Source: a virus. Taken from it: a stretch of 44,035 bases of DNA. Where the stretch lies: positions 1-44,035 of IMG/VR virus record IMGVR_UViG_3300042310_000471, one strand, 5' to 3'. The translations under genes were made by a program, and so were the position numbers. Each line of letters opens with the position of its first letter. Within the stretch, counting starts at the first letter, position 1. Shown piece after piece: positions 5,159-36,880 of the stretch. Under the pieces are notes generated by a model that was not told the DNA's origin, did not search any database, and saw only the letters and a list, made by a program, of their open reading frames with translations.

Positions 5159-5169
5159 GCCTCATTATG
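5153..5169. promoter_or_regulatory. Palindromic operator candidate CATAATG-N3-CATTATG
   Basis: Perfect 7-bp inverted repeat with a 3-base centre. It covers the -10 hexamer and the probable transcription start of the recombination operon. The upstream LuxR-type protein is an obvious candidate ligand; this is inference. Confidence 0.5.
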
Positions 5170-5178
5170 GAGGTAGAT

Positions 5179-5838
5179 ATGGAACGCACAAGCGTAGAGT
5201 TAGACAAGATTGCACCGGCCCTTGTGGGGATACACAATGAGTTACGTGCGATTGTAAAGGATTCCAAGAATCCAGCATTCAAGAGTAAGTATGCATCGTT
5301 GGATGCTATTCTCGACACCATCCGTCCAATACTGGTGAAGCACGGTTGCTTCGTTACGCAAACGGTAACCGAGGGTTCGACACATAACGTTACGATGCGT
5401 CGTAAGCAAAACAACGAGCAGACCGACCAGACAGTGGAGACCTTCCAAGAGACGTCTGTTTTCACCATTACAGCGGTCTCACGTTGTATCCATCTGTCCG
5501 GTCAATGGATCGAATCCTACAGCATCGTCCCTGTTGCTAAGTTTGACGCCCATGGTTTGGGAGCTGCACAAACATACGCACGAAGGTTTTCCCTTGCTAG
5601 TCTTCTCGCACTTGCGACAGACGAAGATGACGATGGGAACGCCGCAACACATGCTGTTGTCCCTGTCCAGAAACCTATCGGCATTGGCGATCAGTTTTGG
5701 ATGGCAGTCAATCAACGCTATGGCACAGACTTGACGCCTGACCGTAAAAAGGAAATCTATATGGAGTTTTCTGGTACGGATAAGCCATCACCGGAAGGCT
5801 ACACCTTGGCACTGAGAAAGTTGCAGGAGAAGAAATGA
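5179..5838 (+). CDS. erf: ERF-family single-strand annealing recombinase
   Basis: About 219 residues from the ATG at 5179, chosen because GGAGGT at 5169-5174 is well spaced for it; the in-frame ATG at 5167 has no site. The N-terminal part fits the ERF family (P22 Erf type): KNPAFKSKYASLDAILDTIRPIL, the HG turn, and DAHGLGAAQTYARRFSLASLLALATDEDDDGNAA, with the conserved G-x-x-x-T-Y-x-R-R and the acidic D-E-D-D-D-G stretch. ERF proteins form rings that anneal complementary single strands in phage recombination and genome circularisation. It is followed at once by a membrane protein and a Gam/Gp157-like protein, the usual ERF neighbourhood. Confidence 0.9.
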   Translation: MERTSVELDKIAPALVGIHNELRAIVKDSKNPAFKSKYASLDAILDTIRPILVKHGCFVTQTVTEGSTHNVTMRRKQNNEQTDQTVETFQETSVFTITAVSRCIHLSGQWIESYSIVPVAKFDAHGLGAAQTYARRFSLASLLALATDEDDDGNAATHAVVPVQKPIGIGDQFWMAVNQRYGTDLTPDRKKEIYMEFSGTDKPSPEGYTLALRKLQEKK

Positions 5839-8549: not shown

Positions 8550-8899
8550 AATGGCGAGGTAGAAGACTTAAGTATGATCCGCTAGCTGAACACAGCGGCT
8601 ACAAGCATGCACCGCGAAGGCGTGTGAAGCTTTGTATTGAGAATGACTTGATGACGTACAGAGATGCAGCCATCTTCTTGCGTATGAATCCATCAACACT
8701 ACGTTGTTACAAGCATCGAGGGATTTTCACCGGCGAGAAGATGGGAAAGATATTTCTACTTCACGGGGAAAGTGTCCGTGCTTACATGGCAGCGAACGAT
8801 CCAGAAACTCTTCGGTGGTGGTTGACTCAGCGACCAGACATTTTGACCGGTCCGATTCTAGATGAGATGAAAGCAAACCAAGATGACAGCACAGTGTAG
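8546..8899 (+). CDS. Excisionase/MerR-like winged helix-turn-helix protein
   Basis: 117 residues. Residues about 35-80 (LMTYRDAAIFLRMNPSTLRC, YKHRGIF, KIFLLHGESVRAYM) match the excisionase-type DNA-binding fold: T/S-x-x-x-A-A-x-x-L, a recognition helix and a beta-wing. The N-terminus is very basic (MKWRGRRLKY, then RRRVK). It overlaps both neighbours. As no integrase is visible, it is more likely a transcription or replication regulator than a true Xis. Confidence 0.65.
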   Translation: MKWRGRRLKYDPLAEHSGYKHAPRRRVKLCIENDLMTYRDAAIFLRMNPSTLRCYKHRGIFTGEKMGKIFLLHGESVRAYMAANDPETLRWWLTQRPDILTGPILDEMKANQDDSTV

Positions 8900-9317
8900 G
8901 AAATGCGGTGCCGAGGGAGTCGCTACAGAGGGCGCACACGGCACAATGCTAGTCAACTGTACAAAGTGTGGGACGCTTGGATTTGGTAACGTCCTGAAGA
9001 AGAAAAACAAATATAGAAACACACGTGTCTATTCAATTGAACACGGAAACTTTGACTCCAAGATGGAGTTTAAACGCTTTGGTGTTTTGATGATGTTAGA
9101 AAAGGCCGGTGATATACAGGATCTCAAGCGCCAGGTTAGATACAAACTGGAGCATGAGGGAGTGTTCTTTGGAATCTACATAGCTGACTTTGTGTACCAG
9201 CAAAGCGGACAGACAATAGTCGAAGACGTCAAGGGACATAAGACAGCCACGTACAAGACTAAAAAGCGATTGATGAAATCAATACACGGTATTGACATAT
9301 TAGAAACCTCCTGCTAA
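8883..9317 (+). CDS. Zinc-ribbon plus DUF1064-type nuclease
   Basis: 144 residues. Residues 5-30 contain two C-x-x-C pairs (CRKCG and CTKCG), a zinc ribbon. Residues about 40-140 match DUF1064: KYRNTRV, DSKMEFKRF with the conserved Glu, then IYIADFVY and VEDVKGHKTATYKTKKRLM, the D-x(n)-E-x-K pattern of restriction-endonuclease-like folds. DUF1064 proteins are small phage nucleases, possibly Holliday-junction resolvases. The N-terminal zinc ribbon is an addition I do not associate with the typical family member. The gene ends at a strong promoter for the next gene, whose -35 and -10 lie within its last codons. Confidence 0.75.
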   Translation: MTAQCRKCGAEGVATEGAHGTMLVNCTKCGTLGFGNVLKKKNKYRNTRVYSIEHGNFDSKMEFKRFGVLMMLEKAGDIQDLKRQVRYKLEHEGVFFGIYIADFVYQQSGQTIVEDVKGHKTATYKTKKRLMKSIHGIDILETSC

Positions 9318-10268: not shown

Positions 10269-10757
10269 ATGGATAAGTGTCCAAAGTGCGGTGTACCCGC
10301 AATGCAAGTAGAGAACGGTGAGTGTATCGAGTGCCGTTTGTTTCAAGTACACCGCGATCCAGAACCGGTGACGTTCGCAGAGAAGCTCAAGGTGCTCGTG
10401 TCTCGCCCAGGCACAGACACGTTCTTCACGCTCATGGCGCCCCTGTGGGCAGGGAGGATAGCTGTTCGCTTTCTTCCTGTTCCTACAGGGAAATGTGTCA
10501 AGTATCTGTACTTCGAAAGAGGTAGCCTGGTTACCATGGCTGTGCACTTCAAAAGCAATGCAATGGATGATTCTAAACTGAGCATGATGGATCTAGAATC
10601 CGACCAATGGCATTTGCTGCCAGAGGATATGGAATTCAGCTCCCCGGTAGAAGACCGGGAAGCACGTGCCATCAGAGTCTTGAACCACTTCAGTACAGAT
10701 GATCGCAAGCGCTTCTTCGCACACTGTGAACATGCCGAGACTTGGATGGACCAGTAA
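10269..10757 (+). CDS. Zinc-ribbon protein, unknown function
   Basis: 162 residues. The first 25 hold two C-x-x-C pairs (CPKCG and CIECR) spaced 15 apart, a treble-clef or zinc-ribbon knuckle. The remaining 135 residues have no motif I know. The gene stands alone: a 166-bp structured gap precedes it, and GGAC tetranucleotide repeats flank it on both sides (about 10130 and 10761), the second beginning three bases after the stop codon. This isolation suggests a separately acquired unit. Confidence 0.7.
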   Translation: MDKCPKCGVPAMQVENGECIECRLFQVHRDPEPVTFAEKLKVLVSRPGTDTFFTLMAPLWAGRIAVRFLPVPTGKCVKYLYFERGSLVTMAVHFKSNAMDDSKLSMMDLESDQWHLLPEDMEFSSPVEDREARAIRVLNHFSTDDRKRFFAHCEHAETWMDQ

Positions 10758-10760
10758 ACA

Positions 10761-10783
10761 GGACGGACGGACGGACGGACGGG
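10761..10783 (+). repeat. GGAC tetranucleotide tract, five copies
   Basis: Five exact GGAC units and a partial sixth, starting three bases after the stop codon of the zinc-ribbon gene. A second long tract lies at 11027-11048 and a short one near 10130-10152. Confidence 0.9.
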
Positions 10784-10821
10784 CGCGTATGTACATAGTG
10801 AGCGTACGCAATGCATAGTGA

Positions 10822-10853
10822 GCACGGTAGGAGAATATCCAACCGTGCTTTTT
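10822..10853 (+). terminator. Intrinsic terminator of the early operon
   Basis: GCACGGT/ACCGTGC 7-bp stem with an inner GGA/TCC stem in the loop, followed by five T and then CTTTG. Ends transcription through the zinc-ribbon gene before the gene-free region. Confidence 0.8.
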
Positions 10854-10947
10854 CTTTGTCTCTTTGTGGAGTCTGAAAGCTGATATAGACTCCACAAGAT
10901 GCATCGATGCGTACCTGATGTGTTGGATGCATGTAGGGTGCGTGTAC

Positions 10948-10991
10948 CGCACGTAACTGCACGTATATGCGCACGTAACCGCACGTATATG
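10948..10991 (+). repeat. Two tandem 22-bp repeats rich in GCACGTA
   Basis: Two 22-bp units that differ at one base; each contains two GCACGTA half-sites 11 bp apart, about one helical turn. The even spacing of four half-sites looks like a protein-binding array. Confidence 0.75.
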
Positions 10992-11026
10992 TGAAAACCC
11001 AAGACGGGCGGCCAAAACGGAAGCAA

Positions 11027-11048
11027 GACGGACGGACGGACGGACGGA
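11027..11048 (+). repeat. Second GACG tract, five copies
   Basis: Five GACG units in register plus a partial one. Directly followed at 11051-11080 by three 10-bp units of the type TGTGTGTGCA. Confidence 0.9.
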
Positions 11049-11050
11049 GG

Positions 11051-11080
11051 GGTGTGTGCATGTGTGTGCATGTGTGTCCA
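11051..11080 (+). repeat. Three 10-bp TG-rich tandem units
   Basis: Units GGTGTGTGCA, TGTGTGTGCA and TGTGTGTCCA. Alternating purine-pyrimidine sequence of this kind can form non-B DNA. Confidence 0.8.
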
Positions 11081-11434
11081 CGTCGCAAATGTGTTGGGAT
11101 CCATACCGGTCTGATCTGCAGCTTGCTGCATTGCATATTGGATTCTAAAACAAACGGGTAAACCCTGGCGATCGTAAAGGACCGGACGTAGCTGCAAACC
11201 GGACGCAATTAAGGCTGCTGCGGGTGTTCTATGGATCAGGTTTGCGGGTTTATATGTCAAGGTATGCATGCGTTTTAGGATGTACATGTGAGCGTTTGAG
11301 CGCCACGCCTAGCGATTAAATCACGTGTATATGTACACCCGCGCATCCGCGAGGAAAATTATCTGGAATCTCACGCGCGCGCGATTCCATTCTATGCAAA
11401 ATCATTTTTGTATCTGCATTTGATCGCTGCAAGT

Positions 11435-11476
11435 AGCAGGTATCCGGCAGCAGGTAGCAGGTATTCGGCAGCAGGT
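11435..11476 (+). repeat. Two tandem 21-bp repeats
   Basis: Two 21-bp units starting AGCAGGTAT and ending GGCAGCAGGT, differing at one base. They lie between the simple-repeat region and the island promoter; no coding role seen. Confidence 0.85.
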
Positions 11477-11487
11477 GCCATGCCCGG

Positions 11488-11568
11488 TATTGATCGCCCG
11501 CTGCGCAGCATGCGCGCCCGCGATCCCTGCAGCGCCTGCGAGCTCGCACCCGGTGTATTGATCGCCCG
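11488..11568 (+). repeat. Interspersed words TATTGATCGCCCG and CCCGCTGCGCAGCA (left flank)
   Basis: TATTGATCGCCCG occurs at 11488 and 11556 and again at 14405; CCCGCTGCGCAGCA occurs at 11497 and again at 14463. The two gene-free flanks of the island therefore share exact 13-14-base words. Confidence 0.8.
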
Positions 11569-11613
11569 GGCGCGTGTATCTGTTACACCTGAAAAATAGC
11601 TGCATGCTACACC

Positions 11614-11643
11614 TTGACATAATCGCGCCTATGCCTATATAAC
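11614..11643 (+). promoter_or_regulatory. Island promoter 1 (TTGACA-N18-TATAAC)
   Basis: Perfect -35, 18-bp spacer containing ATCGCGCCTAT, and TATAAC. Promoter 2 (13275) and the one in the late-gene cassette (33661) have the same -35, the same spacer length and nearly the same spacer sequence, so the three are copies of one element. Start codon follows at 11672 after GGTGGTATCGG. Confidence 0.85.
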
Positions 11644-11671
11644 CAACTATCAAACCAACAGGTGGTATCGG

Positions 11672-12214
11672 ATGGAACCAATTATTTTTAACCGGCCGGA
11701 TATCCGCGAATTAGCGGGTGAATTGATCAAATGCGGAATTTGTACGGGTGTAAATGTTAGCGGGCATATTGTCGCAAATTGGGCGCATTTCGGCCCGGCC
11801 GTGATTTATGTTAATAGCTGCTGCGATACTGAATTTATATGCCCGTCAAGGGTCGCGTACCGGGCCGGTGATTATGTCAATTCCCGGAAATCATACCTGC
11901 AGCGGATAACAGAAAACGCGATCGCCGCGGTATTACACGAAATGTGCGAAAACTGCAGCGTTAAACCGGTTTGCTGCGCAGCAAACGACGAATTCGAATT
12001 ACGCGAAATAGAAGAATCACATGCAGCATTTGAATACCTCAAAAATGGTGATTATGAATTCGTACGCGATCGCGCGCATGAATTAGGTATTGATGCTGCA
12101 CATTTGTACCTTGACGGTGAAAACCAACTGCAGCTAACAATTAATGGAACGGATGCATACCGGGTGAAATTCCGGGTGTATTTTTCTGATCAGATAATAG
12201 GGGAAATCGAATAA
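11672..12214 (+). CDS. Island protein, paralogue of the late-operon cassette protein
   Basis: 180 residues, unknown family. Residues 1-91 align with the 95-residue product of 33718-34005: both begin M-E-x-I-x-F-x-R-x-D-x-R-E-L-A-x-E-L, share Y-V/I-N-S-C and C-P-S, and have a Y-V-N before a C-terminal helix. The extra 90 residues here contain a cysteine cluster (CENCSVKPVCC) and a second, acidic half. Seven or more cysteines may bind metal. Codon choice is GAA/AAA-only, unlike the rest of the phage. It opens an operon with the next two genes. Confidence 0.7.
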   Translation: MEPIIFNRPDIRELAGELIKCGICTGVNVSGHIVANWAHFGPAVIYVNSCCDTEFICPSRVAYRAGDYVNSRKSYLQRITENAIAAVLHEMCENCSVKPVCCAANDEFELREIEESHAAFEYLKNGDYEFVRDRAHELGIDAAHLYLDGENQLQLTINGTDAYRVKFRVYFSDQIIGEIE

Positions 12215-12456
12215 TGGGAAATGTAGAAAATACCGGTTTGACTGTGCACGATGTCAAACGAGAAATAATGGAAAATCCTAAATTGCGGGCATTTGTAAAT
12301 GAATGGATTTCGTACGGGTTCGAACCAAGCTTAAAGGATTTTTACGCGATCACAAATTCAGGCGCGGGTGTATCCGGTTGGTGTATCACCGCGATTTGTA
12401 CCGCTACTGAATTGCGATCAGACAATTGGAAATTGGGAGAATGGGGGAAAAAATGA
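12214..12456 (+). CDS. Hypothetical island protein
   Basis: 80 residues, its ATG overlapping the previous stop by one base and its stop overlapping the next start (ATGA). The N-terminal half is charged and helical; the second half contains WCITAICTATE. No family recognised. Tight overlap on both sides means it is co-translated with its neighbours. Confidence 0.6.
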   Translation: MGNVENTGLTVHDVKREIMENPKLRAFVNEWISYGFEPSLKDFYAITNSGAGVSGWCITAICTATELRSDNWKLGEWGKK

Positions 12457-13220
12457 AAACACTTATGACGGTAAACAATTCAGGCGCGCTTGACATCAAA
12501 CCACGCGATACTACAAAAATATCTGATTTGATCGCAGCGGTAGAAAAATCAGACAATGACAAAATTGGCCCGTGTAGCTGCACATGGGTTGCACAAATAT
12601 CATGCCCGCCCGCATGCCCGCATATGGGCGCCGGGTGTTATGCGGAAGGTGGTATGGCGGGCTTTACTACGTCAAGGTTAAACCGTGCAGCGGCAGAATT
12701 TGCTACCCTATCACCTGCAGCGATCGCAATGATAGAAGCTGCAGGGATCGATCAATTAACCGGGCGCCGGGATTTACGTTTGCATGTAGTAGGCGACGCT
12801 AGGACCGATAAAGCGGCGCAAATTCTATCTGCTGCTGTGGATAGGTTTATAGCCCGTGGTGCAGCTAAAGGTAAAACCGTACGCGTTTGGACGTATACGC
12901 ATGCCCGCGATACACGCCGCGAATCGTGGGGCCGCATATCGGTTTTACGATCGTGCGAAACAATGCCACAAGTGCGCGCCGCGCATGCTGCCGGGTTTGC
13001 TGCTGCGATTGTTTTACCGGAACACACACACGATCGCGCATATAAACTTGACGCCGAATTTACCGGTATCCCATGCCCGGAACAAACCGGGCGCGCCGCT
13101 AATTGCATTTCATGCGGGCTATGCATGCAAGATAGCAAATTACACGCTAGAAAACGGGTAATTGTATTTGCTGCGCACGGGCAGGGGAAAAAGAAAATGC
13201 TACACCTTAAAACGGTGTAG
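12453..13220 (+). CDS. Cysteine-rich putative metal/Fe-S protein (DUF7227/Gp88-like)
   Basis: 255 residues from the ATG at 12453 with GGGGGAAAAA upstream. The N-terminal part has cysteines at 41, 43, 51, 55 and 62 (CSCTW, CPPACP, GAGCYAE) and the C-terminal part has PCPEQTGR followed by CISCGLC near residues 205-225. The central region (LRLHVVGDARTDKAAQILSA, VRVWTYTHAR) looks like a TIM-barrel strand-helix series. Phage proteins of the DUF7227 or Gp88 type share these N-terminal C-P-x-x-C-P and C-terminal C-x-x-C-x-x-C signatures; their function is not known to me. The stop codon lies inside a hairpin. Confidence 0.65.
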   Translation: MKTLMTVNNSGALDIKPRDTTKISDLIAAVEKSDNDKIGPCSCTWVAQISCPPACPHMGAGCYAEGGMAGFTTSRLNRAAAEFATLSPAAIAMIEAAGIDQLTGRRDLRLHVVGDARTDKAAQILSAAVDRFIARGAAKGKTVRVWTYTHARDTRRESWGRISVLRSCETMPQVRAAHAAGFAAAIVLPEHTHDRAYKLDAEFTGIPCPEQTGRAANCISCGLCMQDSKLHARKRVIVFAAHGQGKKKMLHLKTV

Positions 13221-13221
13221 C
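13199..13221 (+). terminator. Hairpin over the stop codon of the cysteine-rich gene
   Basis: GCTACACC/GGTGTAGC, perfect 8-bp stem, 7-base loop; the TAG stop is in the right arm. No T-run follows, so it may act as an mRNA 3-prime stabiliser or with the next hairpin. Confidence 0.5.
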
Positions 13222-13245
13222 TATCACCAGGGATCGCCCGCTAAA

Positions 13246-13276
13246 AATACCCGCGTGAATTCACCATGCGGGTATT
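13246..13276 (+). terminator. Hairpin overlapping the next promoter
   Basis: AATACCCGC/GCGGGTATT, 9-bp perfect stem, 13-base loop. Its last two bases are the first two of the -35 of island promoter 2, so termination of the first operon and initiation of the second are packed together. Confidence 0.6.
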
Positions 13277-13304
13277 GACACAATAGCGCCTATACGTGTA
13301 TAAC
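13275..13304 (+). promoter_or_regulatory. Island promoter 2 (TTGACA-N18-TATAAC)
   Basis: Same design and spacer motif (AATAGCGCCTATACG) as promoter 1. Drives the cluster of very small genes that begins at 13336. Confidence 0.85.
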
Positions 13305-13335
13305 TAAACATCAAACGAGATAGGGTAGAAATCAA

Positions 13336-13431
13336 ATGTTCAAACGTTTTCAGGTATCGCTAGATGATCTTATGTTGGTTTACTGCAGCATTTTAGCTGC
13401 AGGTATGATCGTTGCTTTATTCTTTATATAG
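13336..13431 (+). CDS. 31-residue membrane protein
   Basis: MFKRFQVSLDDLMLVYCSIL and then a hydrophobic end AAGMIVALFFI. One predicted transmembrane helix with a basic N-terminus. First gene after island promoter 2. Function unknown. Confidence 0.55.
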   Translation: MFKRFQVSLDDLMLVYCSILAAGMIVALFFI

Positions 13432-13441
13432 GGGAAATCAA

Positions 13442-13540
13442 ATGTTAATTAGTTATCTGATCGCCGGGTTTATCGTTGCTGCATTTCTAGCATTTGGCAT
13501 TTATTCGATCGTCGTAAAGGGCGAAACACTAGCGGGTTAA
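13442..13540 (+). CDS. 32-residue membrane protein
   Basis: Starts after GGGGAAATCAA. Residues 2-24 are hydrophobic (LISYLIAGFIVAAFLAFGIY), with a short polar tail VVKGETLAG. One transmembrane helix. Function unknown. Confidence 0.6.
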   Translation: MLISYLIAGFIVAAFLAFGIYSIVVKGETLAG

Positions 13541-13553
13541 GGGATCAATAAAA

Positions 13554-13646
13554 ATGATTATTGTAGGCTGCATTCTAGTATTTTTGTTTGCGCTGTTATG
13601 CGTTTGTAGCGGGCCTAATTGCGGGCCGTGGAAAGGTGGAAAGTAA
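13554..13646 (+). CDS. 30-residue membrane peptide with cysteines
   Basis: MIIVGCILVFLFALLCVCSG followed by PNCGPWKGGK. The helix is followed by a cysteine motif that resembles a lipobox, but the peptide is too short to call a lipoprotein. The ribosome-binding site is weak (AAGGGATC). The stop codon abuts the next start. Confidence 0.5.
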   Translation: MIIVGCILVFLFALLCVCSGPNCGPWKGGK

Positions 13647-13838
13647 TTGACTTTGTATACAATAATTGCATTTGCGATAATGCAACAAACGCTATTTTTA
13701 GGCGCGTTTTTGATTTTCCGCCGCAGGGTAAATACCGGCCGTGCTATTTACTACGGTTACATTGCAAGCTTGCAAGGTTGCGGCATTGTAGCCGCGGTAT
13801 TGATCGTGCGTCATTTAATCGGTTTGCTTTACCTTTAA
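13647..13838 (+). CDS. 63-residue two-helix membrane protein
   Basis: TTG start directly after the previous TAA, so expression probably depends on coupling. Two hydrophobic helices (about 2-24 and 36-62) separated by a basic turn FRRRVNTGR. This hairpin form resembles small holins, but size and context do not prove that. Confidence 0.5.
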   Translation: MTLYTIIAFAIMQQTLFLGAFLIFRRRVNTGRAIYYGYIASLQGCGIVAAVLIVRHLIGLLYL

Positions 13839-13860
13839 GGTAGCAGGGGGAAAATCAAAA

Positions 13861-14112
13861 ATGGATCAACTGAATTCTATACACGTAACAATACACCTGA
13901 AAACGGATCGCATTATGCAACCTTCAAAATGCGCGTACGTTCCAAATTGGGCGGATATTGATCGTTTGCTTGACGGCTTGACCGGTGCCATTATAACCGG
14001 GCAGATATCGCACGAATTTTTGACGGGCGCAATTGTATCTGCTACCAAATTGTCGGAATTTGATACCCGGAAATTCAAATATAACGGGTTAGAATGGGTG
14101 AAGGTGTATTAA
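13861..14112 (+). CDS. Soluble 83-residue island protein
   Basis: Starts after CAGGGGGAAAATCAAAA. No membrane segment; mixed alpha/beta composition with NWADIDRLLDGLTGAIITGQ. The only clearly soluble product in this cluster. No family recognised. Its stop overlaps the next start (TAATG). Confidence 0.6.
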   Translation: MDQLNSIHVTIHLKTDRIMQPSKCAYVPNWADIDRLLDGLTGAIITGQISHEFLTGAIVSATKLSEFDTRKFKYNGLEWVKVY

Positions 14113-14225
14113 TGTTAGTACTAATTGCAACGGCGCTTTTAAGTATCGGTTTGCTAGCTGCAGCGATCGCGTTTTCTACTTTGTGGAATTCTGCGGATGC
14201 AATGGAAAAATATAACGCGGATTAA
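14112..14225 (+). CDS. 37-residue membrane protein
   Basis: MLVLIATALLSIGLLAAAIA followed by FSTLWNSADAMEKYNAD: one N-terminal helix and an acidic tail. Last gene of the cluster, 21 bases before a strong terminator. Contains one GCGATCGC octamer. Confidence 0.55.
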   Translation: MLVLIATALLSIGLLAAAIAFSTLWNSADAMEKYNAD

Positions 14226-14246
14226 CACGCGCACAAATCAGAAATC

Positions 14247-14271
14247 AAACCCGGGCCTATAACCCGGGTTT
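14247..14271 (+). terminator. Terminator of the small-gene operon
   Basis: AAACCCGGG/CCCGGGTTT perfect 9-bp stem, 7-base loop, followed by ATTCTATTT. Confidence 0.8.
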
Positions 14272-15075
14272 ATTCTATTTAGGGCCGATTATGCATTTGA
14301 TCCCTAAATGCCCGCGTACGGGCAAATTACGCGCCTATGATGCATCAATACACCCGGCAGCCTATCGCCCGTGATAGCTGCAGATAACAGATACACGCGC
14401 CCGCTATTGATCGCCCGATACTGTTACACCTTCACCAGGGTGCACCAGGGTGCAACGTTGCACCCGCTGCGCAGCAGGGATATATGCCCGCTACACCTTG
14501 GCACACTTCACCAGGTGCGCACCAGGGATCAATACACCCGGTGATAGCTGCAGCCTATAGGCCCGCGATCAACAGCTACACCCGGTAGCAGAAAACCCGC
14601 CCGTACGGCCGTTATACGGCCCCGTACGCTACACCCGCCCGCGTCAAGGTTTACGGGTTGCATGTAACAAATGGAAATCCAAAATCTGGCCACGCCTTAA
14701 TTATGTATTTTGCGGGCGCCTATTACATCAAACCGGGCAAATGTAAGAATTCCATACCTGCAGCTTGACGCGATCACCACCGCTACATTCTCAATACCCG
14801 GGTTTATATCGCTTGACTTGACGTGCCATTTATACGCTAGTGTTCTAAATATCCCCCCTGTTATCCGCGCATTCTATTCCCCCTGCTACAACCTATAGAG
14901 GGGCCTAACGAAATCGAAAAGGCTAGATCGCAATAGGTAACCCATCAATTTTCTCACTTTCGCCTCCTGTCCATTAGTCACAAGCTCTAAGGCATCTGTT
15001 AAAAATAGTTGTATTATTTGTATGGTTTTTTGTTTTGTCCTCTAGCATTGGAATTTGTGTAGGACATATTATTAA

Positions 15076-33328: not shown

Positions 33329-33555
33329 GCTTAGAAGTTTGGCACTTGGTTGTGGCGGTGGCTACTTTGTTACTTCCTATTATGATGACTGCAATACAAA
33401 CAGCGATGGGCTTTGCTCGTATGGATGAGCAACTCCGCGGAATGCGGGATGAGATACAAGAAGTCAAGACACGTGGTAATCACATTGAGACACGCTTAGG
33501 AAAGATTGAAAGCCGTGTGTCGAACATCGAAGGTCGAATGGGACAAGTAAGATGA
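33325..33555 (+). CDS. Membrane-anchored coiled-coil protein (lysis accessory candidate)
   Basis: 76 residues: one N-terminal helix (VWHLVVAVATLLLPIMMTAI) followed by a heptad-rich segment (MDEQLRGMRDEIQEVKTRGN, LGKIESRVSNIEGRM). It resembles, in reversed order, XhlA-type lysis proteins. Paired with the two-helix protein it could form the holin unit, but direct evidence is lacking. Confidence 0.5.
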   Translation: MSLEVWHLVVAVATLLLPIMMTAIQTAMGFARMDEQLRGMRDEIQEVKTRGNHIETRLGKIESRVSNIEGRMGQVR

Positions 33556-33642
33556 ATAAATCTGCGATGTCTGCTACGCTGGGCGTTCCTCACGATGCCG
33601 TTCAAGGGTACGAATGCGAACAGCCTGAAGGTGGGCAAATGA
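33552..33642 (+). pseudogene. Frameshifted copy of the 40-residue module gene
   Basis: Compared with the intact gene at 36534-36656, this copy starts MNKSAMSATLGV and continues in the +1 frame as MPFKGTNANSLKVGK then stop at 33640. An extra base near 33587-33593 separates the frames. In the first frame reading continues through the cassette promoter to 33737. The copy is probably broken, or the second half is made from the internal ATG at 33594. Confidence 0.55.
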
Positions 33643-33660
33643 ACTTCCAAAACTACCGGC

Positions 33661-33690
33661 TTGACATAATCGCGCCTATAGGCCTACAAT
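33661..33690 (+). promoter_or_regulatory. Promoter inside the cassette, copy of the island promoters
   Basis: TTGACA, 18-bp spacer, TACAAT. The first 16 bases match the promoter at 11614 (TTGACATAATCGCGCC), and GGTATCGGATGGAAC before the gene is shared with the island copy. It provides transcription independent of the late operon. Confidence 0.8.
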
Positions 33691-33717
33691 CGGACATCAG
33701 CAAAGTGGAGGTATCGG

Positions 33718-34005
33718 ATGGAACATATCAATTTTGAGCGGGCAGATGTCAGAGAATTGGCAAACGAATTAGTTAGGCTTAGGGCATTGCCTGACATAGA
33801 CTTAGTGCAATATGTATACGACAATTGGTGGTGGTATGAAGCACCAATTGAGTATATTAACAGCTGCACTGATGCAGCCTACCTCTGTCCATCACATCTG
33901 GCAGTTGATGGGGAAAATTATGTTAACCGTTATCACCGTTACTTTTTTGATAAGGTGAAAAAAGCGATTGACACAATTTTAGAGGCAATGGAGGTGGGCA
34001 AATGA
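33718..34005 (+). CDS. Cassette protein, truncated paralogue of the island protein
   Basis: 95 residues, GTGGAGG upstream. Aligns with residues 1-91 of the 180-residue island protein; shared features are M-E-x-I-x-F-x-R-x-D-x-R-E-L-A-x-E-L, YINSC, CPS and NYVN. The final four residues (EVGK plus stop) come from the flanking repeat and match the end of the 40-residue module gene (LKVGK). Unlike the island copy it uses GAG freely, so it has been here long enough to drift. Function unknown; behaves like a moron gene. Confidence 0.75.
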   Translation: MEHINFERADVRELANELVRLRALPDIDLVQYVYDNWWWYEAPIEYINSCTDAAYLCPSHLAVDGENYVNRYHRYFFDKVKKAIDTILEAMEVGK

Positions 34006-34229
34006 ACCTAAGTAATGTTGTTGTCACACCACTTGTGACGAACCCTGCCGACTACAACATCAAAGCCGACATCATGAACGACGAGAATGTCAAGGTTGCA
34101 GACTTTGGTGTTGATGGCATTGATATGTTTACGTGGTGGGTTCAACAGGATGAAGCATTCCGTCAAAACATCGTGAATCAGTTCATCGTGATTATGGCTC
34201 AAGAAATCTACACAGGAACGGCTGAGTAA
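34002..34229 (+). CDS. Module protein A1 (75 residues)
   Basis: 75 residues, paralogue of 36653-36880. Both have NPADYN-(I/V)-KADI, FG-x-DGID-x-FTWWV and end with a helix and GTxE. The pattern suggests a small beta domain plus helix. Always directly before a beta-helix gene with TAATG overlap, so probably its chaperone or attachment partner. Confidence 0.75.
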   Translation: MNLSNVVVTPLVTNPADYNIKADIMNDENVKVADFGVDGIDMFTWWVQQDEAFRQNIVNQFIVIMAQEIYTGTAE

Positions 34230-36355
34230 TGGCAACTTATTATGTTCGTCCTGACGGCAGTGACTCAAACACTGGACTAGGCGCAACCACTGCTCTTGCG
34301 TGGCGTACCGTACAAAAAGCATTAGGTGCAACCGGCATAGGCTCTGGTGATATCGTCTACATCGCTCCCGGTCATTACAATGAAACGGTTACAGTTGGCG
34401 GTACATACTCGGCAGAAACACAAATCATTGGTGACCCGTCTGCTTCACAGTTTACTGGTGTGAATCCCGGTTATGTCAAACTTAGTCAATTTGCGTCAGC
34501 TGGAACATCAGCACGTAACCTTACGCAATTATTGATTTCTGCCAGCAAGTCTTACCTACACTTCAAAAACCTATACTTTGAGTTGGCGCAGGTTAGTGAA
34601 ATATTGATGAACTTTACAAACGCAAGGTTTATCAGTTTCACTGGGTGCGTGTTCTACCATAACCTACGCCCAGCTGTTGGTAACTACACGCTATCGATCA
34701 CAAACCCATCAGGACAAACATCAAACACGACAATACAAAATTGTGTCTTCTATAACAATCCATATGTGATTCTACAAAGTGTTGTGTCAGGTGATGCAAC
34801 AGTCCTGAAAAACAATCTTTTTGTAAATGGATATAACGAGGGCATTCAGTTGTTTCAATGTACAGCGACCGTTTATAACTGCACATTTGCTATTGCATCT
34901 GTCGGTATGCGTATAACGGGTAGTTCTGTTGTGACTGCAAATAACTGTTTATTCACTGCGTGTAATCAAGGCGTATTGATTTCAGCCGGGACATATAACG
35001 AAAACTACAACCGATACATCGGTAACAGCACAAACGTATCAGGGACATATACTCCCGGTGGCAATAGTTCATCAACTGGAATCACAGGTATTGAGTCAGC
35101 GTATAGCTTACTTCATTCGCTGAATAATGCAGTCGTATTTGGTAGCGTCAATGGTAGTCAGAATGCATCGTTTGGCACTGCGACAGGCGCACCTACAACA
35201 GACCTATTTGGTGTAGCGTGGACAGGTTCTTCTCCTGACGCTGGAGCAATTACATACCGTAATCCATCAGGTGTTGGTCAATACATCCCAACCGAGCGCA
35301 ACGCATCTACCATCACAATCGCACCCGGTTCCACCTCACAATCTATCGAACTCTATCTTGGTGCTACAGGTCTAACAGCCTCCACTTTTGGTCTCTCAGC
35401 GTATTACAACCGTACACGTAGTGCAGACGTACAGATAAACCTGCAAGCACGTAACATCACACAGAACTGGACTAGTGGTGGGTTCGCTGAAGTAAACCCT
35501 AACACAATGCCTGGCGTATATCGTTTGGATATTCCAAACGAGGCTTTAGTCGCAGGTGCAGACGACGTCACAGTTGTTGTCAGAGGAGCATCAGGTACCA
35601 ACGGTGCAGTGATGAGCATCAAACTTAGCTCCGGTGGTCTTACAACAGCACAGACTGCTAGTGCCGTATGGAACGCATTGACCAACGACCATACAACGCA
35701 CGGCACGTTTGGTTGGAATGTTCTACGTGCGGATCAAGACTCCAAGGAAGGCTTGGTTACTCTTCATCAGTCTGGTGGTGTCTCACGTGTAGATGCTGAC
35801 ATACACGCTGTTGTCAATGACACTGCTGCCGCTACTGCATTCAAGGGCGCATTGCTCCACGATGGAACAGGTTACGTTGATTCTGATGTTGTCCGCGTAT
35901 CAACAAGCACTGCTGCGGCTAATGAGTTAGAGGGCGCACTGCTACACAACGGCACAGATTACATTGACGCTAACTTGTTGTCTGGTAACTCTACTCGAGT
36001 GTTCGTTGGTCGATTCCAGATGACGCAGACAGGCACAACCCAAGGCGACATCATTGAAGCGTTTACAACAGACACTCCTGCGTTTGAGTTGCAGTTGTTT
36101 GATGGAGACAACAACCTTGTCCCTGTCACAGGGGCAACACTTGGCTTGCGTATCCTAGATGTGACGAGCACGGTGGTAGAGACAGGTACACCTACAATAG
36201 AATACGGAACAGGTGGAATCGTCAGATGGACAGCACCAGGGACGTATCTAAGTATTGGTTGTCCTGCTGGCATGTATCGGTTGTTCGTTGATCGCACAGT
36301 GAGTGGTACGACGACAACGTTTGGTCCGTTGCAGATAAAGGTACAAGTGCAATGA
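34229..36355 (+). CDS. Right-handed beta-helix fibre/spike protein 1
   Basis: 708 residues. N-terminus MATYYVRPDGSDSNTGLG and TALAWRTVQKALGA is the standard opening of DUF1565-like parallel beta-helix proteins. Residues about 60-330 are Asn/Val/Thr-rich beta-helix turns. Residues about 350-490 match the equivalent part of protein 2 closely (NASTITIAPGSTSQSIELYL). The C-terminal 100 residues are a beta domain ending TTTFGP. Its site between connector and neck genes suggests a head or neck fibre or a receptor/glycan-binding spike. Catalytic residues not identified. Confidence 0.75.
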   Translation: MATYYVRPDGSDSNTGLGATTALAWRTVQKALGATGIGSGDIVYIAPGHYNETVTVGGTYSAETQIIGDPSASQFTGVNPGYVKLSQFASAGTSARNLTQLLISASKSYLHFKNLYFELAQVSEILMNFTNARFISFTGCVFYHNLRPAVGNYTLSITNPSGQTSNTTIQNCVFYNNPYVILQSVVSGDATVLKNNLFVNGYNEGIQLFQCTATVYNCTFAIASVGMRITGSSVVTANNCLFTACNQGVLISAGTYNENYNRYIGNSTNVSGTYTPGGNSSSTGITGIESAYSLLHSLNNAVVFGSVNGSQNASFGTATGAPTTDLFGVAWTGSSPDAGAITYRNPSGVGQYIPTERNASTITIAPGSTSQSIELYLGATGLTASTFGLSAYYNRTRSADVQINLQARNITQNWTSGGFAEVNPNTMPGVYRLDIPNEALVAGADDVTVVVRGASGTNGAVMSIKLSSGGLTTAQTASAVWNALTNDHTTHGTFGWNVLRADQDSKEGLVTLHQSGGVSRVDADIHAVVNDTAAATAFKGALLHDGTGYVDSDVVRVSTSTAAANELEGALLHNGTDYIDANLLSGNSTRVFVGRFQMTQTGTTQGDIIEAFTTDTPAFELQLFDGDNNLVPVTGATLGLRILDVTSTVVETGTPTIEYGTGGIVRWTAPGTYLSIGCPAGMYRLFVDRTVSGTTTTFGPLQIKVQVQ

Positions 36356-36534: not shown

Positions 36535-36656
36535 TGGCACTCTATGGAAGCAAGGCTGTAGCGGCTGGTGTCACTGCTGCGATGAGTGCCGCGCTGGGCT
36601 TCTTGACGATGCCGTTCAAGGGTGTTGCGCCTAACGCGCTGAAGGTGGGTAAATGA
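36534..36656 (+). CDS. Module small protein, intact 40-residue copy
   Basis: MALYGSKAVAAGVTAAMSAA then LGFLTMPFKG and a tail to LKVGK. Ala-rich, moderately hydrophobic helix. Start overlaps the previous stop and its own stop overlaps the next start (ATGA). The corresponding gene before module 1 (33552) is frameshifted. Confidence 0.6.
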   Translation: MALYGSKAVAAGVTAAMSAALGFLTMPFKGVAPNALKVGK

Positions 36657-36880
36657 ACCTAGCAAATATTGTACTCACGCCTAACCCGCAGAACCCTGCC
36701 GACTATAACGTCAAGGCTGATATCACCAACGACCAAAACGAAGTCATCGGTACATTTGGCCCGGATGGTATTGACGTATTTACGTGGTGGGTTGCACAGG
36801 ATGTAGAGTTTCAACAGAATGTAGTTATGCAGTTTATGTGGGTAATGGCTAAAGAAATTATGTCAGGGACATCAGAATAA
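36653..36880 (+). CDS. Module protein A2 (75 residues)
   Basis: Paralogue of 34002-34229, about 55-60 percent identical by eye, with the shared NPADYNVKADI and FGPDGIDVFTWWV. TAATG overlap with the second beta-helix gene. Confidence 0.75.
   Translation: MNLANIVLTPNPQNPADYNVKADITNDQNEVIGTFGPDGIDVFTWWVAQDVEFQQNVVMQFMWVMAKEIMSGTSE

Follow-up and report, generated by a model that had tools for sequence, protein, structure and literature searches.

Lambdoid phage morons (Hendrix and colleagues, as quoted in PMC3029335) are promoter-bearing extra ORFs located between genes that are adjacent in relatives, with no transposase. In mycobacteriophage Island3 (Cluster I), the 3' end of the inserted gene 68 duplicates that of the gene before it, an arrangement explained by recombination between duplicated boundary sequences, not by transposition (PMC3029335). 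Boundary sequences and relaxed homologous recombination allow modules to be exchanged at short shared sequences, and phage annealing proteins promote recombination of diverged sequences (PMC2327257, PMC3945230), among them the Erf protein of phage D3 (PMC3945230).

The locus described here is a promoter-bearing cassette in the late operon of a phage record of 44,035 nucleotides (the window). The initial annotation called it a moron moved without a transposase. An extra promoter-bearing gene does separate two genes that are neighbours in relatives, and neither the cassette nor the adjoining DNA showed a transposase, integrase or inverted terminal repeat. It is not a textbook moron, however, since it lacks a terminator and its stop overlaps the next start; moreover, what it carries is no unrelated gene, but a shortened relative of the island gene of the same phage family. 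Island3 gene 68 is the nearest published parallel found, but its repeat is about 50-60 bp and no promoter was described for it, whereas the repeat of the cassette is a conserved translation-initiation boundary and a promoter is included. As in the boundary-sequence systems, modules appear to be exchanged at short shared sequences and an Erf-like protein is phage-encoded, but the boundary is a coding/Shine-Dalgarno element of one gene family. The cassette is probably a terminator-less, moron-like unit at the first tail-fibre module boundary, assembled and transferred through recombination at homology or microhomology, with Erf as a plausible aid. So read, it is a well-resolved example of phages gaining promoter-bearing genes without transposition.

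Genome setting, cassette gene and promoter

The ends of the 44-kb record share an exact 127-bp repeat, so the window is probably a complete genome, either circular or terminally redundant. It encodes a terminase, a portal, a major head protein, two DNA methyltransferases, an Erf-like single-strand annealing protein as the candidate recombinase (5167-5838, plus strand (+); phrog_2324, 1.2e-35), and a Holliday junction resolvase (8883-9317, +; phrog_190, 3.8e-23). Family scans of selected window genes revealed no integrase. The late operon ends with two tail-fibre modules, each comprising a 75-aa gene and then a fibre-like protein, and each preceded by a small gene whose conserved C-terminal end in relatives is LKVGK-stop. 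The first module contains a B-type 75-aa gene (MNLSNVVVTP..., 34002-34229, +) and a 708-aa tail-fibre-like protein with a pectate-lyase-like N-terminal part (34229-36355, +; PF12708). The 75-aa gene of the second module is located at 36653-36880 (+). The small gene upstream of the first module (33552-33737, +) showed, by allele comparison, a one-base frameshift at 33579-33602, the point at which a one-base-longer chimera passes from one allele class to the other (CTGGGC.. and CTGGCG..). All related sites scored for this gene were in frame (88/88), the window alone being out of frame; a sequencing error is a possible cause.

The cassette gene (33718-34005, +) encodes 95 aa and consists of the first 91 codons of the island gene family followed by EVGK-stop from the module boundary. 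In the full-length island gene (11672-12214, +; 180 aa), a conserved tip and a conserved C-terminal domain enclose the variable residues 25-82. In the island genes of the window and four relatives, the first 24 residues and the C-terminal domain are conserved and the middle (approximately 25-82) is variable; the 91 residues of the cassette correspond to about the part preceding the C-terminal domain. Its description as the 5' half of the island gene is thus right as to extent (91 of 180 codons). The final codons had been regarded as borrowed from the target gene, and VGK-stop is indeed not island-derived, but its source is the LKVGK-stop of the upstream gene, with the stop overlapping the downstream ATG. 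The N-domain represented in the cassette was modeled by AlphaFold as four helices (mean pLDDT 81.4), and the full-length model was weak in the middle (pLDDT 67.5). For the cassette domain, no fold match was found in PDB or viral models. Searches with the cassette/island protein in phage records, plasmids, Pfam, PHROGs, and PADLOC, and by sequence- or fold-based structure comparison, yielded nothing usable, and scans of 84,980 prokaryote genomes revealed no relatives of the island gene (whole or C-domain). We would tentatively take the cassette domain to be, most likely, a stand-alone variant of the variable (partner-binding) domain of the island protein.

A 42-nt island-type promoter with a downstream ACATCA element was located at 33661-33702 (+). 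Its sigma-70-like part, TTGACA-N18-TACAAT (33661-33690), already recognized in the initial annotation, matches at 11 of 12 positions and is the best such site in 31.5-39.5 kb. With a weight matrix built on eight island promoters, cassettes left out, the site scored 39.7 bits, whereas 60 Markov-shuffled genomes gave 15.8 at best; in 1.27 Mb of fetched loci, scores above 14 bits were obtained only in islands (two copies each) and cassettes. Because of this score and this distribution, the cassette promoter is regarded as a real relative of the island promoters, with which it also shares the ACATCA element past the -10 box. A scan of viral contigs for the promoter pattern returned three further loci that had no nucleotide similarity to the window, so few that chance could explain them. 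The two island promoters of the window precede the full-length island gene (11614-11655, +) and very small hydrophobic ORFs (13275-13316, +), and their presence, together with the position of the island, suggests early expression of the latter. Like a moron, the cassette would have its own promoter, which may be active early or constitutively and give the helical domain expression independent of late control. With no terminator-like site at the cassette 3' end, the promoter might also read into the fibre genes.

Whether the cassette is maintained at all can be questioned. The truncated gene and its promoter might be decaying debris, that is, non-functional leftovers of module shuffling, a state compatible with a recombination origin. 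The conserved C-terminal domain is missing from the cassette gene, the upstream gene is frameshifted in the window, and the stub that precedes the promoter is stopped at codon 6 in one relative (L004). Nevertheless, the ORF is open in all copies, with no indels across 9% divergence; the -35 and -10 boxes and their spacing are preserved in all three cassette types; and the truncation falls at a domain end. For the cassette ORF against the island genes of two relatives (L005 and L007), dN/dS was near 0.2, part of which predates the truncation. Among cassettes, it was about 0.5 (17 nonsynonymous and 8 synonymous changes; simulated P about 0.03), which is suggestive of selection on the ORF within the cassette group and argues weakly for function. 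Statistical support for constraint is modest. The debris reading is considered unlikely but deserves attention. A more specific role is doubtful: the cassette could be a kept spare of the island hypervariable domain (residues 25-82) under an early-type promoter in the tail operon, providing either a donor for domain swaps or another specificity of a protein that evolves fast and faces the host or its defences, with the promoter giving early transcription of the accompanying fibre module.

Module boundary and joints of the insert

The 16-mer AGGTGGGCAAATGAAC occurs exactly at 33629-33644 (+) and 33992-34007 (+) and with one base different at 36643-36658 (+), as initially reported; with as many as 3 mismatches allowed, shuffled sequence would be expected to give 0.28 matches. 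The left copy comprises the Shine-Dalgarno sequence and stop/start overlap of an A-type 75-aa gene, and the right copy the Shine-Dalgarno sequence and start of the B-type gene together with the 3' end of the cassette ORF. The third copy, previously interpreted as the surviving uninterrupted site, is the same boundary ahead of the 75-aa gene of the second module and, hence, paralogous. The true empty site was found in relatives lacking the cassette, in which the upstream gene stands directly before the 75-aa gene. In a census covering 36 relatives of the downstream 75-aa gene and 80 (of 314) relatives of the A-type allele, the boundary string AAGGTGGGCAA (at most 1 mismatch) was found directly before ATG in 101 of 112 distinct related start sites, among which the cassette site of the window was counted only since its right junction retains AAGGTGGGCAA. 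Within the boundary lie a Shine-Dalgarno sequence, the terminal codons of the preceding gene, and an ATGA stop/start overlap; in the relatives listed, that gene finishes with the string and no cassette intervenes. First modules carried A-type genes in 16 relatives and B-type genes in 9; therefore, module exchange at the 75-aa gene boundary appears to be common and the boundary a regular exchange point. The cassette was the only insert among the 11 of 112 non-standard sites, and a general insertion hot spot was rejected.

The left joint was located by comparison with an A-type allele (L116). The window continues past the left 16-mer with TTCCAAAACTACCGGCTTGACATAATCGCG; from AAGG to CTTGA, the window and L116 agree at 36 of 37 bases, and beyond that at 3 of 12-13. 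The homology ends at TTGA, inside the -35 box of the cassette and 20 bases past the left 16-mer. Because it continues to 33664 and then drops to chance, the left flank (33629-33664, +) is shown, on the alleles compared, to be a 5' stub of an A-type 75-aa tail-module gene (MNFQNYRLD), joined within TTGA, while the right flank is an intact B-type gene. The tetranucleotide TTGA is common to both partners, belonging to the Leu-Glu codons of the A-type gene and to the promoter TTGACA. The repeats, the promoter, and the gene had been placed correctly, but the left end of the insert is at 33664/33665; with target-gene homology running to 33664, the novel DNA extends from about 33665 to 33990 (roughly 326 bp). 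At the right junction, a possible microhomology of only 2-3 bases was observed. The stubs of the three cassette types differ from one another, and some of the stub matching may derive from later allele exchange. The joint can be read nearly to the base, from the tail-gene stub into the -35 box, and later exchanges begin inside the new insert. As in mosaic exchange, a short conserved sequence common to alternative modules lies at the joint, and similarity between relatives changes sharply there. The stub frame, stopped at codon 6 in L004, is open in the window and L024 as a 32-codon frame running over the promoter into the cassette gene (33639-33737).

In the initial annotation, the 16-bp repeats were taken as the footprint of an insertion. 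A true mobile cassette, entering by a site-specific or transposition-like reaction with duplication of a 16-bp target, would account for the empty sites in relatives and for the flanking repeats, which are exact in the window and L004. This explanation is strongly disfavoured: the repeat is a gene boundary conserved also where no cassette lies, homology to the target gene continues on the left past the repeat as far as 33664, the right copy in L024-L026 has 3 of its 16 bases changed, and the unit comes without a recombinase gene. The promoter-gene unit had also been proposed for a search at other loci, and viral scans recovered it only in islands and at this one junction. Across the related sites, the flanking 16-mers are thus shown to be two pre-existing module boundaries, not a target-site duplication, and the exact repeat is accounted for by homology and the coding function of a translation-initiation boundary, not by an insertion reaction. 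More generally, the site is a warning that exact repeats on both sides of a gene in a phage operon may turn out to be conserved ribosome-binding boundaries.

Origin and later exchange

The same junction order (A stub, promoter, 95-aa gene, and B gene) was found in L004 and in the near-identical L024, L025, and L026, in contigs from separate assemblies, and an assembly artefact was rejected. Since L004 and L024-L026 have the same three-part junction, it probably arose once; since the window and L024 have diverged (91% identity in the cassette ORF and 77% in the next gene), it is probably old. The cassette was therefore hardly caught soon after insertion, as had been suggested: the three cassette types have one junction structure and are already diverged.

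A within-genome duplication, in which the phage placed a copy of its island promoter and of the 5' half of its island gene in the late operon, is improbable. The 19 bases TTGACATAATCGCGCCTAT do recur unchanged in the cassette and island promoters of the window, which is not so in L004 or L024 (local conversion of the cassette promoter is possible). However, the cassette protein has 35% identity to the window's own island gene product, and the window and L024 cassettes have 65-70% to the L005 and L007 products; the nucleotide identities are 49% against 72%, and one junction is common to the three cassette types. Contrary to what had been assumed, the cassette gene is accordingly not a copy of the window's own island gene.

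Under the preferred recombination origin, a piece of an L005/L007-like island, donated by a phage that had one, would have been joined at TTGA to codon 8-9 of an A-type gene, and its other end at the ATG/AAGG module boundary. Either the A module would have been replaced in this event, or an insertion would have been followed by exchange of the downstream module for the B type at the shared boundary. The intermediate of the latter course, an A-type gene with the cassette and an intact downstream half, was not found among the fetched relatives. Subsequently, the cassette would have travelled between genomes with the neighbouring gene and fibre by ordinary homologous exchange, and the Erf-like annealing protein of the phage is a plausible helper. 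Island and cassette occur together in one 37-kb contig (L005 and L025), and in the L007 contig the island is present and no cassette was found.

An example of such travel is seen in a 1.57-kb block (33712-35286, +), extending from the cassette leader to the fibre gene, in which the window and L004 differ at 2 positions. On the left, 44 differing positions were counted in 33560-33711, positions before 33582 being not alignable, and clear difference begins again from 35287. Because so few differences lie inside the block and many on both sides, the cassette gene, the B gene, and the first part of the fibre gene are taken to have moved together in a recent exchange, one crossover of which lay in the cassette leader.

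Composition and gene content of the island

The island gene and the cassette gene present the same domain in two genomic settings, which makes them useful for testing what shapes the odd island. The GC content of the cassette is 0.41, against 0.43-0.49 nearby, and its palindrome density is near the phage level. Four-base palindromes reach 106/kb in the island (10700-15000), where 62.5 are expected for random sequence, and the rest of the genome is depleted (45-47). The island excess is found in coding and non-coding parts alike. In the island genes of four relatives (L005, L007, L047, and L048), the density is 106-131 palindromes/kb, and in the cassette gene it is 51-66. Short GGAC repeats (GGACGGACGGACGGAC) are located in the left part of the island region (10756-11069). 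A cysteine-rich island gene (12426-13220) with DUF7227 and weak GP88 similarity adjoins the island gene in relatives as well. The second island promoter is followed, within 13275-13850, by several successive, very short hydrophobic ORFs, each some 30 codons long (e.g., MFKRFQVSLDDLMLVYCSILAAGMIVALFFI), and these possibly encode small membrane proteins.
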